Positions 9,945 through 15,298 of a stretch of 37,611 bases of DNA are shown one piece after another. This DNA is from Nitrospirota bacterium (lineage in GTDB: Bacteria > Nitrospirota > UBA9217), in NCBI GenBank assembly GCA_035516965.1, contig DATIZR010000096.1:1-37611 (forward strand), read 5' to 3'. The notes beneath the pieces were generated by a model that made no database searches, had not been told where the DNA came from, and saw nothing but the letters and a program-made list of their open reading frames with translations. Position 1 is the first letter of the stretch. Each line of letters begins with the position of its first letter. Made by a program: the position numbers and the translations under genes.

Positions 9945-10010
9945 CGCGCAAAGGCGCCAAGACGCAAAGAAAGAGTGAATTCAAGATTCACCCCTTGGCG
10001 CCTTTGCGCG
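9945..10010. repeat. 17-bp perfect inverted-repeat element (GCAAAGGCGCC type)
   Basis: CGCGCAAAGGCGCCAAG (9945-9961) is mirrored exactly at 9994-10010, with a nested GTGAAT/ATTCAC pair inside the 32-base spacer, giving a cruciform-capable element. It fills the middle of the 288-base gap between rpe and the HMGL gene. The core words recur in shorter form at 32.6 kb. Confidence 0.75.
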
Positions 10011-10098
10011 AGATGCCTTTGACTGCAGAGTTCTCTTTTTTGACTTAATTGATCTGGGCGAAGCTTCGCTAATTTTATATTTGCCATTGGAGGTAGTC

Positions 10099-11886
10099 GT
10101 GTCGATAAAAAAACACCCAGCAAAAATGACCTTCGAGCTGAAGGATGTGACGGAGCCGGTGCTGTACCGTGATGTGTTCCCCTACACGAGCGTCCCGCGC
10201 GTCGTGCTCGAGGAGCGGCTCATCCAGACGAACATCCCGAAGGACATCTGGATCACGGACACTACCTTCCGCGATGGCCAGCAATCCCGGCCGCCCTACA
10301 CACCCAAGCAGATCGCCGATATCTTCGACTTCATGCACCGCATGAGCGGGCCCAAGGGCGTCATCCGTCAGTGCGAGTTCTTCCTCTATTCGGAAAAGGA
10401 CCGCGAGGCCGTCCGGCTCTGCCGGGAGCGCGGATACCGGTATCCCGAGATCACCGGCTGGATCCGGGCGAACAAAAACGACTTCAAGCTCGTGAAGGAC
10501 ATGGAGCTGAAGGAAACGGGCATTCTCACGTCCTGTTCCGACTACCACATCTTCCTGAAGCTGAACATCTCCCGCAAGGAGGCGCTCAAGCAGTACTGCG
10601 GCATCGTCTCGACCGCGCTGGAACAGGGCATCAAGCCGCGCTGCCACTTGGAGGACATCACCCGGGCCGACTTCTACGGATTCGTGATCCCCTTCGTGCA
10701 GGAGCTGATGAAGCTCTCGGAGCAGGCGCGGATCCCGGTCAAGGTCAGGGCCTGCGACACCATGGGCTACGGGTTCCCTTTCCCGGGCACGGCCCTTCCG
10801 CGCGGCGTGCCGGAGATCTTCTACGCCCTTATCCATGACGGCGGCGTGCCCTCGGAGCAGCTCGAATGGCACGGCCACAACGACTTCCACAAGGGGCTGG
10901 TGAACGGAACCGCCGCCTGGATGTACGGCTGCTCCGCCGTGAACGGAGCGCTCCTCGGGTTCGGCGAACGAACGGGCAACACGCCCGTCGAGGCCATGCT
11001 GATGGATTATATCAGCCTGACCGGCGAGGACTCCGGCATCGACACCACGGCGATAACGGAGATGGCCGAATATTTCCGGACCGAGATGGGCTTCCCCATC
11101 CCCACGAACTACCCCTTCGTGGGCTCCGAGTTCAACTCGACCGCGGCGGGCATCCATGCCGACGGCATGATGAAGAACGAGGAGATCTATAACATCTTCG
11201 ACACGACGAAGATCCTGAAGCGGCCCATGGGGGTCATCATCACGGACAAGTCGGGCGTCGCGGGCATCGCGCACTGGGTGAACAGCCACCTCCACCTGGA
11301 CGCGGACACGAAGATCGACAAGCGCCATCCCGGGCTCGCGAAGATAAACAAATGGGTCATGGAACAGTATGAGCAGGGACGGACCACGAGCATCTCGCAT
11401 GAGGAGCTGCTCGACCGGGCCAAGAAGTACCTGCCGGAATACTTCGTCTCCGATCTCGACCGCTTGAAGAAGAAGGCATCGGAGGTCGCTCGCCACATCG
11501 TCGAGGAGTTCGTCGGAAAGCCTGAGATACGCTCCATGGACCCGAAAAAGCAGGAGCCCGTCATGGAGAAGCTGCAGCGGGAGGACCCGTACCTTCAGTT
11601 CGTGTATGTCGTGAACGCGGAGGGAAAGAAGATCACCAAGAACATCACCGACATCGAGAACAAGGCGAAGTACGAGGATTCCGGCCTGGGCGACAATTTC
11701 TCCGACCGGCCGTGGTTCATCAGCCCGATGAAGGACGGCAAAAGCTTCGTATCCGACTTCTACACGTCCAAGATCACGGGCGCGCTCTGCATCACCGTGT
11801 CGGCACCCATCATGTCGATGAAGGAAGAGATAGTCGGGGTCTTCGGCGTGGACATCCGGTTCGAGGACCTGGTCAGGGCAGAGTAG
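10099..11886 (+). CDS. HMGL-family acyltransferase (Re-citrate/homocitrate synthase-like) fused to a C-terminal Cache-like domain
   Basis: The 595-residue protein opens with a DRE-TIM catalytic barrel, about residues 48-330. It carries ITDTTFRDGQQSRPPYT (Arg58-Asp59, the RDGxQ motif), CHLEDITRAD (182-191), the metal-binding WHGHND (257-262) and GFGERTGNTPVEAML. A linker with AGIHADGMMKNEEIYN follows, as in isopropylmalate and homocitrate synthases. These enzymes condense acetyl-CoA with a 2-oxoacid; oxaloacetate, 2-oxoglutarate or another substrate cannot be told from sequence. Instead of the LeuA regulatory domain, residues about 486-595 look like a PDC/Cache sensor: YLQFVYVVNAEGKKI, FSDRPWFISPMKDGKSFVSDF, CITVSAPI, VGVFGVDIRFEDLV. 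No membrane segment or signal peptide is seen, so the sensor would be cytosolic. GTG 10099 was chosen because GGAGG lies 5 bases upstream. A strong terminator follows. Confidence 0.85.
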   Translation: MSIKKHPAKMTFELKDVTEPVLYRDVFPYTSVPRVVLEERLIQTNIPKDIWITDTTFRDGQQSRPPYTPKQIADIFDFMHRMSGPKGVIRQCEFFLYSEKDREAVRLCRERGYRYPEITGWIRANKNDFKLVKDMELKETGILTSCSDYHIFLKLNISRKEALKQYCGIVSTALEQGIKPRCHLEDITRADFYGFVIPFVQELMKLSEQARIPVKVRACDTMGYGFPFPGTALPRGVPEIFYALIHDGGVPSEQLEWHGHNDFHKGLVNGTAAWMYGCSAVNGALLGFGERTGNTPVEAMLMDYISLTGEDSGIDTTAITEMAEYFRTEMGFPIPTNYPFVGSEFNSTAAGIHADGMMKNEEIYNIFDTTKILKRPMGVIITDKSGVAGIAHWVNSHLHLDADTKIDKRHPGLAKINKWVMEQYEQGRTTSISHEELLDRAKKYLPEYFVSDLDRLKKKASEVARHIVEEFVGKPEIRSMDPKKQEPVMEKLQREDPYLQFVYVVNAEGKKITKNITDIENKAKYEDSGLGDNFSDRPWFISPMKDGKSFVSDFYTSKITGALCITVSAPIMSMKEEIVGVFGVDIRFEDLVRAE

Positions 11887-11905
11887 CAGGCTGCAAAAAA
11901 AAGAC

Positions 11906-11938
11906 AAGCCGTACGCGGTTTCGCGTACGGCTTTTTTT
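11906..11938 (+). terminator. Rho-independent terminator after the HMGL-Cache gene
   Basis: A perfect 12-bp stem (AAGCCGTACGCG, 11906-11917, with CGCGTACGGCTT, 11922-11933), a GTTT loop and an uninterrupted T-run to 11938, starting 19 bases after the stop codon. An A-run on the left (11895-11902) may give weak activity for the convergent minus-strand gene as well. Confidence 0.92.
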
Positions 11939-13543: not shown

Positions 13544-15256
13544 TTATTCAAACGCCGGAAGGTAAATGGCGAAGGTCGTGCCTTTTTCGACCTCAGAATC
13601 AATCGTAATAAGACCGCCGTGCCGTTTGATGACAGAATAGCAAACGGCCAGGCCCAGTCCCAGGCCCTTCTGGCTGTAGGTATCTTTCGTGGAAAAATAA
13701 GGATCGAATATCCTCGGGATATGTTCCGTCTCAATGCCGAAACCTGTATCCCGCAGGGTCACTTTGATGTAGTCCCCGGCGGGCAGCAACAAGCCGTCAT
13801 CCGCGGCAAGGTGAATATTTTCTCCCGTGATGCGCAGTACGCCCCCGTCCGGCATCGCTTCCTTTGCGTTCGTCACGAGATTCAAAAAGACCTGCCGCAT
13901 CTGCTCCGCGTCGACCGGCACGGGACGGAGATCCTCCGGCAGCTCCAGCTCCGCTCTGAGCGGAGCATGGTCCAGGACCTCTTTTACGCTCTCTTTGATT
14001 ATTCCGGAGATCGGTCCCATTACTCTTGCATGCTCCCCTGCCGTGGCAAAGGTCAGGAGACGCTGACTCAATTCTCTGGCGCGGAGACAGTTTTGCATCG
14101 CCACGGTCATGGTCCTGTGCACCAGGTCATCGGGCTGAGATTCGTTTTTCGCGATCTCGATGAATCCGATGATGGAGGTTATGAGGTTGTTAAAGTCATG
14201 CGTAACTCCGCCGGCAAGGATCTCGAGCGATTCAAGATGGCGCAGTTTCAGATGCTCCTCTTCAGCCTTTTTGTGCTCCGCACGGTATCGGATCATGGCA
14301 ACGGCGACCGTGATGCTGATTCCGCACAAGACAACATAGAGCGCAATAAGGATGGCGGTGTCCCTTCGCCAGGGGGACAGAACCGCGTCCCGGCTGCGGC
14401 TTACGGTTATGATAAGCGGATATTCGACCTTCAAACCGGGAGGCGTACACGTGATGAGCACTGCAATGCGTTCTTCGCCCAACATTGAGGAACGGCCGTG
14501 TTGAATCGAGGCCTGCTTTCCACCCTCCCGGTGCCGCGAAAAAAGGGACCCGGACCTGAACAAATTTTTCCCGGCAAAACCGGGCTGCGTATCCGGAAGC
14601 GATATGAAGACATCACCGCCGGCATGCACGAGGCTTACCCGGTTATCAGGAGCGTAAAGCACCGACCCGACCAGCGTACCGAAATACTCCTTGTCCAGAC
14701 TTGCCGCGACGATACCGAGGAATTCTCCGCGCTTTCCCGTCACCTTCCTTGTTACGTTAACGACAGAAACTCCGAGCACGGTCTGATAGGGCGGCGTGAT
14801 GATCAGTCGGTCCGGATCGGAGATCGCAAGCGCCGTTTTGAAGTAATCACGGCCGCTCCCGTCAAACCCGATGATATTCTCCCTGCTTGAGCGAATAATG
14901 CGGCCATGGGAGTCGGTGACGAAAATCGTGCGGATGCCGGGGATCAGATCGTCCTGATGGCGCAGGTATGCGTTCATTTCAGCGGCGTTCGGACGCGATG
15001 CTCCGGTCTGCATTCTGACGATATCGGTCAATAAGACGTTTATGAATGTCAGGTTGGCGCCCAGGTTCTCGTCCAGGACCCGTGCCTGTGCCATCAGACG
15101 ATCTTCGGTACTCGCTATGGTACGCTTGTATTCTATGTACCGTTGTCCCGCCAGGAACAACCCGAGGAGCAGAAGCAAAGCAGAAATGCCGGCCCATGTT
15201 AATTTGCGGCCAGCGAGAGCGCCTTTTTTTAGTGCCTGTTCGGTGTGTTTTACCAT
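13544..15256 (-). CDS. Cache-domain sensor histidine kinase
   Basis: The membrane kinase has about 570 residues. Its parts in order: first membrane helix (about 19-38, WAGISALLLLLGLFLAG), a large periplasmic double-Cache sensor (about 45-305, with GFDGSGRDYFKTAL and VVNVTRKVTGKRGEFLGIVAASL), second helix (about 312-335), a short coiled coil, a HisKA domain with phospho-acceptor GGVTHDFNNLITSIIGF, and a HATPase domain (NLVTNAKEAMPDGG, DTGFGIETEHIPRIFDPYFS, GLGLGLAVCYSVIKRHGG). There is no receiver domain and no adjacent response regulator, so it is an orphan here. The frame is open to a TTG at 15298, but a promoter -35 occupies that spot and the ATG at 15256 gives a normal start, so I use it. 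No clear Shine-Dalgarno is present. Confidence 0.92.
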   Translation of the reverse strand: MVKHTEQALKKGALAGRKLTWAGISALLLLLGLFLAGQRYIEYKRTIASTEDRLMAQARVLDENLGANLTFINVLLTDIVRMQTGASRPNAAEMNAYLRHQDDLIPGIRTIFVTDSHGRIIRSSRENIIGFDGSGRDYFKTALAISDPDRLIITPPYQTVLGVSVVNVTRKVTGKRGEFLGIVAASLDKEYFGTLVGSVLYAPDNRVSLVHAGGDVFISLPDTQPGFAGKNLFRSGSLFSRHREGGKQASIQHGRSSMLGEERIAVLITCTPPGLKVEYPLIITVSRSRDAVLSPWRRDTAILIALYVVLCGISITVAVAMIRYRAEHKKAEEEHLKLRHLESLEILAGGVTHDFNNLITSIIGFIEIAKNESQPDDLVHRTMTVAMQNCLRARELSQRLLTFATAGEHARVMGPISGIIKESVKEVLDHAPLRAELELPEDLRPVPVDAEQMRQVFLNLVTNAKEAMPDGGVLRITGENIHLAADDGLLLPAGDYIKVTLRDTGFGIETEHIPRIFDPYFSTKDTYSQKGLGLGLAVCYSVIKRHGGLITIDSEVEKGTTFAIYLPAFE

Positions 15257-15270
15257 AGAATTTATAAAGT

Positions 15271-15298
15271 ATTGTACTGCAAATGATTTTAATTGCAA
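15271..15298 (-). promoter_or_regulatory. Promoter of the Cache histidine kinase
   Basis: On the minus strand TTGCAA (15298-15293), a 16-base spacer and TACAAT (15276-15271) lie 14 bases before the ATG at 15256. This argues against translation from the upstream TTG at 15298. Confidence 0.5.

Follow-up and report, generated by a model that had tools for sequence, protein, structure and literature searches.

The window analysed here, a 37,611-nt stretch of DNA from a metagenome-assembled Nitrospirota genome, carries a gene that fuses a putative Re-citrate synthase to a Cache domain. We consider it probable that the product is a cytosolic Re-citrate synthase whose Cache domain binds an amino or carboxylic acid, probably an amino acid, and alters how active the enzyme is or how it assembles. 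The gene is complete (positions 10099..11886, forward strand; 595 aa, 67.8 kDa). Sequence inspection places its GTG start codon at 10099, its stop at 11886, a Shine-Dalgarno-like GGAGG at 10089..10093 (forward strand), 5 bases 5' of the GTG, and a terminator-like hairpin, AAGCCGTACGCG-GTTT-CGCGTACGGCTT followed by a T-run, at 11906..11938 (forward strand).

The enzymatic part is an HMGL-like TIM barrel (PF00682; residues 51-324, positions 10249..11070, forward strand), detected by Pfam with 98 bits against a cut-off of 29, and the DRE-TIM motifs read there in the first-pass annotation (RDGxQ, CHLED, HGHND and GERTGNTPxE) are present at about the residues it gave. The barrel is followed by helical subdomains (residues 325-450, positions 11071..11448, forward strand) that hold the invariant residues H353 and Y364 and match HCS_D2 below threshold; homologues that have no Cache domain stop at the end of this region, around residue 450. 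A connecting helix between enzyme and Cache is predicted by the AlphaFold model at residues 452-471 (positions 11452..11511, forward strand), and the Cache/PDC domain itself, delimited by profiles, AlphaFold and fold search, occupies residues ~475-593 (positions 11521..11877, forward strand). This domain is a single module that resembles the membrane-distal half of dCache_1. Two Pfam models exceed their cut-offs over it, dCache_1 (PF02743, residues 485-591, 51.1 bits, cut-off 45) and MCP-like_PDC_1 (PF22673, residues 497-591, 50.4 bits, cut-off 27), and YkuI_C matches below its cut-off. LeuA_dimer (PF08502) had no Pfam match in the fusion protein; as a positive control, the isopropylmalate synthase of the same genome scored 125 bits with this model.

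An AlphaFold model built from 130 homologues reached a mean pLDDT of 90.7, with values of ~75-92 in the Cache domain, and the best PDB fold matches of its barrel were homocitrate and isopropylmalate synthases (Foldseek). The fold matches of the C-terminus, KinD, Tlp3 and YkuI, were obtained by Foldseek with an earlier model from 13 close homologues, in which the barrel was poor (mean pLDDT 62.6) but the Cache part was good; KinD ranked first by fold among the sensor domains. In the PDB, the matches to a profile built from 27 Cache sequences were Tlp3 (1.3e-11), KinD (1.7e-10), PctA (6.8e-7) and YkuI (1.2e-4). By profile score and by fold the domain therefore belongs to the Cache superfamily, and what it lacks is the usual extracytoplasmic site beside membrane helices, which is perhaps not a defining feature. 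The proposal that a PDC/Cache domain stands where LeuA has its allosteric domain is thus upheld by profiles, fold and conservation, with its boundaries placed correctly; profile searches with the protein recovered both domains, and neither a LeuA_dimer fold nor an absence of Cache similarity was seen. The statement that the protein has no signal peptide or membrane helix agrees with our hydropathy scan, in which the top 19-residue window has a mean Kyte-Doolittle value of 1.2 and the N-terminus is polar. An extracytoplasmic or membrane protein is ruled out, since the 595 residues contain no hydrophobic segment.

Neither the upstream neighbours of the gene in the window (fmt, DUF116, rsmB, PASTA and rpe) nor the downstream one, which encodes a Peripla_BP_6 substrate-binding protein on the opposite strand, gives a clue to its function. 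Two genes downstream lies a histidine kinase of the conventional kind that has dCache_1 as its N-terminal domain (51.3 bits; 13544-15298, reverse strand) and whose usual sensor layout contrasts with the cytosolic Cache of the HMGL fusion. The intergenic sequence GCAAAGGCGCCAAGACGCAAAG at 9948-9969, 5' of the gene and followed by an inverted copy, has 10 genome-wide matches at up to 2 mismatches, compared with 0 for its reversed control, and is therefore a dispersed repeat. An antisense open frame of 610 aa (10075-11907, reverse strand) spans the entire gene; of 81 homologous loci, 71 are likewise covered by antisense open frames, and codon use in G+C-rich genes is the likeliest cause.

The fusion is widespread. 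All 13 Nitrospirota members of alignment A1 share the HMGL-Cache architecture, as do ten members chosen from other phyla. Of 14 genomes sampled from its own taxonomic family, 13 have the gene (its own genome counted), as do 31 of 148 Nitrospirota genomes and 99 of 198 Desulfobacterota genomes, nearly all of the last with the Cache domain. Further Cache-bearing records come from Omnitrophota, Elusimicrobiota, Spirochaetota, Lentisphaerota, Fibrobacterota, Margulisiibacteriota and Auribacterota, so that the fusion extends beyond Nitrospirota and Desulfobacterota to at least seven more phyla. An assembly chimera or a chance similarity to Cache is ruled out, as the fusion is kept across numerous genomes and phyla. 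The 32 Bacillota genomes with the gene (of 299) have matches that stop near model position 450 and hence are without Cache, and the anammox Planctomycetota also have the short form, ending at ~450. In a tree of the barrel the short forms are basal, and one clade holds 55 Cache forms together with 5 short forms. The tree test neither establishes nor rejects a common clade for the Cache forms (p-AU 0.175), and one gain with later losses is therefore indistinguishable from several gains.

An indication that the domain senses a small molecule is the conservation of its predicted ligand pocket, a stretch R537-x-W539-F540 ... Y555-x-S557 ... D585 (positions 11707..11853, forward strand) delimited by alignment to PctA and by conservation. 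Among 96 Cache-bearing sequences, W539, S557 and D585 are kept in all, F540 in 95, R537 in 91 and Y555 in 85 (with F in 8 others), and the nearby T566 and T560 in 95 and 92, respectively. The pocket residues persist in Lentisphaerota and Desulfovibrio, where identity of the Cache domain to that of the window protein is only 30-37%. R537, W539, F540, Y555, S557 and D585 align to PctA R126, W128, Y129, Y144, D146 and D173 (the numbering offset was set by hand from the alignment and the residues named in PMC10104139), so that S557 occupies the place of PctA D146. In amino-acid sensors, a first tyrosine, the arginine and the tryptophan grip the carboxyl group of the ligand, and a second tyrosine and the aspartate grip its amino group; the corresponding motif, dCache_1AA, reads [YFWL]....[RK].W[WYF]..[YF]..D (PMC11237719). 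The window protein has five of the six motif positions, with D532 in place of the first aromatic residue, and hence does not carry the complete motif. Without that first position the motif ([RK].W[WYF]..[YF]..D) occurs in 90 of the 96 members, compared with 40 of 20,000 shuffled versions of the Cache domain of the window protein. All six positions agree in 11 of the 96, all at Desulfovibrionales-type loci (L072, L084, L088-L090, L092, L093, L097, L101, L102 and L104), where an aromatic residue stands at the position of D532. Because these near-invariant residues match the contacts of amino-acid sensors, our best guess from sequence is a ligand that carries a carboxylate and, probably, also an amino group.

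The nearest alternative, which we regard as a real though rather unlikely one, is that Cache responds to a keto or hydroxy acid (pyruvate, oxaloacetate, malate or 2-oxoglutarate) or to acetate, serving the Re-citrate synthase as a substrate or energy sensor. It draws on KinD, the top sensor-domain match by fold and the second-best PDB match by sequence: one KinD PDB entry is a pyruvate complex, the chain of the KinD R131A mutant differs at the very residue that aligns to R537, the arginine and an S-x-x-T pattern are common to KinD and the fusion, and most members of the family are missing the first aromatic residue of the amino-acid motif. However, in the alignment KinD has neither the tryptophan nor the aspartate, whereas W539 and D585 are present in 96 of 96 members, and their equivalents in amino-acid sensors contact carboxylate and amine (PMC11237719). 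A keto acid is therefore less likely as the ligand than an amino acid, though possible.

It seems improbable that the domain binds no ligand and serves oligomerisation or stability alone. PAS and Cache domains are known as dimerisation domains (PMC8694187), and homologues without the domain exist; but the pocket positions stay near-invariant while the domain as a whole diverges to ~30% identity, and a domain that acted purely as a scaffold would have no need of R, W, S and D in a pocket. This conservation strongly suggests that the Cache domain is a sensor, and makes its role as an allosteric small-molecule sensor domain well motivated at the level of sequence.

As for the enzyme, which the first-pass annotation did not single out within its group, the fusion family is most likely Re-citrate synthase. 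Citrate synthase directs carbon towards glutamate, and the Re type is a rare form of it. R58, D59, Q62, E185, H258, H260, N294, H353 and Y364 are invariant in 130 sequences, and the metal and acid-base residues expected of an HMGL/DRE-TIM barrel are thus intact. The barrel is 63% identical to that of L113, a protein of Candidatus Kuenenia hertensis; the L113 gene directly precedes succinate-CoA ligase genes, with 26 bases between them. The candidate Re-citrate synthase of K. stuttgartiensis likewise adjoins succinate-CoA ligase and shares 55.1% identity with the enzyme of C. kluyveri; its authors present it as a proposal and ask for biochemical verification (PMC8027424). We take L113, by these shared neighbours, as a putative Kuenenia-type Re-citrate synthase, and it is through this proposed type that the window protein is related in sequence to recognised Re-citrate synthases, the comparison being to the Kuenenia type only. 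Membership of the homocitrate synthases (NifV/LysS) is ruled out by scores below the curated NCBIfam cut-offs (TIGR02660, NifV, 129.5 against 462.9; TIGR02146, homocitrate synthase, 95.1 against 413.55), and that of the isopropylmalate synthases by the missing LeuA_dimer and a score for TIGR00973 (LeuA) of 82.5 against 598.7.

Gene neighbourhoods point in the same direction. Aconitase and/or isocitrate dehydrogenase genes lie on the same strand within 8 kb in 19 of 66 named Cache-bearing loci, often directly adjacent, and further Cache-bearing loci have malate dehydrogenase or succinate-CoA ligase. Among 198 Desulfobacterota genomes, 85 have only the Re type, 74 only the Si type, 14 both and 25 neither, an exclusion with a Fisher p of 2e-18 when shared ancestry is ignored; Si-citrate synthase is also missing from 12 of 13 named genomes that have the family. 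The Cache-bearing Re type thus largely replaces Si-citrate synthase in Desulfobacterota. At 33 loci of the Desulfobacterota type (among L038-L099), aspS lies ahead of the Cache-bearing gene on the same strand, often with hisS before it (22 loci), a conserved coupling to aminoacyl-tRNA synthetase genes.

No such exclusion exists in Nitrospirota, where both types coexist as often as not, and the genome of the window and most of its taxonomic family keep an Si-citrate synthase beside the Re-type gene. With these Si-type enzymes present, the Re type may have a different role in this organism. Its genome (G000, contigs C14 and C60; loci L033 and L034) holds an Si-type citrate synthase gene directly after an aconitase gene, as well as a prpB-prpC pair, which belongs to the 2-methylcitrate cycle; two or three enzymes could therefore make citrate there. 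It is very unlikely that the barrel, instead of citrate, makes the product of a related condensation (homocitrate, citramalate or isopropylmalate). The homocitrate and isopropylmalate synthase models are its best NCBIfam matches, and Si-type enzymes are present in its genome. However, the NifV and LeuA scores fall far under the curated cut-offs, genes for aconitase, isocitrate dehydrogenase, malate dehydrogenase or succinate-CoA ligase occur in its operons, and in Desulfobacterota the family and Si-citrate synthase complement one another. Context makes the assignment of the family as a citrate synthase strong, and the window protein itself may well share the Re activity.

A characterised enzyme may already have carried the domain. 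Kim et al. reportedly purified the Re-citrate synthase of S. aciditrophicus in 2013 as a homotetramer of Strep-tagged subunits of 72,892 Da. This mass fits the Cache-bearing length (71.2 kDa in the Syntrophaceae homologue L060) and not that of the short forms (~50-54 kDa), and the purified enzyme therefore probably contained a Cache domain.

We propose that the barrel would convert acetyl-CoA and oxaloacetate to citrate on a DRE-TIM/HMGL fold, unlike the fold of Si-citrate synthase, and that Cache would be an allosteric module joined through the helix after residue 450, where the short homologues end. Cache would be dispensable for catalysis, since members that do not have it are presumably active. 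Its pocket would hold a small amino or carboxylic acid from inside the cell. The likeliest is an amino acid made downstream of 2-oxoglutarate, with glutamate, as an end product, a natural candidate. Binding of this effector may change the activity of the enzyme or the arrangement of its oligomer, in either direction, comparable to the action of leucine on isopropylmalate synthase through its LeuA domain.

Each half of this protein has known relatives. With Re-citrate synthases of the C. kluyveri/Kuenenia/Syntrophus type it shares the barrel family, the catalytic residues and neighbours from the TCA cycle, but it adds the Cache domain that the Bacillota and anammox members lack. LeuA and the lysine-regulated homocitrate synthases have the same HMGL barrel and helical subdomains and a C-terminal domain at the allosteric position; that domain is LeuA_dimer in LeuA and, in the Sulfolobus homocitrate synthase, a RAM domain (named in PDB 6ktq), instead of Cache. 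The dCache_1 sensors Tlp3, PctA and KinD resemble it in fold and in the pocket positions R, W, F/Y, Y and D (KinD without W and D), but theirs are two-module extracytoplasmic parts of receptors and not one module on a soluble enzyme. YkuI of B. subtilis (PDB 2bas) also has a C-terminal PDC/Cache-like domain beside an enzymatic domain, although it is an EAL signalling protein and not an enzyme of central metabolism. Neither Re-citrate synthase nor the Cache domain is new in itself, and in YkuI a PDC-like domain already sits beside an enzymatic domain outside the receptor layout. In a literature search that covered few subscription papers, and is therefore weak evidence of absence, we found no report of Cache in Re-citrate synthase or as the allosteric domain of any central-metabolic enzyme, no regulator of Re-citrate synthase, and no literature on SYN_02536, DVU0398 or CKL_0973.

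Cache is the largest family of extracytoplasmic sensors (PMC12889525), and a conserved single-module Cache on a soluble enzyme of central carbon metabolism would extend this fold to intracellular metabolic feedback. For annotation, HMGL-Cache proteins should be read as probable citrate synthases and not as signalling proteins, and the pocket residues make the sensor idea directly testable. If true, it would show how Re-citrate synthase can be regulated and would be a use of the Cache fold not described before; direct gating of citrate synthesis by an amino acid would likewise be an undescribed way to control entry to the oxidative branch of the TCA cycle. The broader scenario, which we put forward tentatively and hold somewhat short of an even chance, is that a receptor-type amino-acid Cache moved into the cytosol and became a feedback regulator of citrate synthase across many anaerobic phyla. 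The fusion suggests an entry enzyme of central metabolism that is switched by a repurposed receptor pocket.
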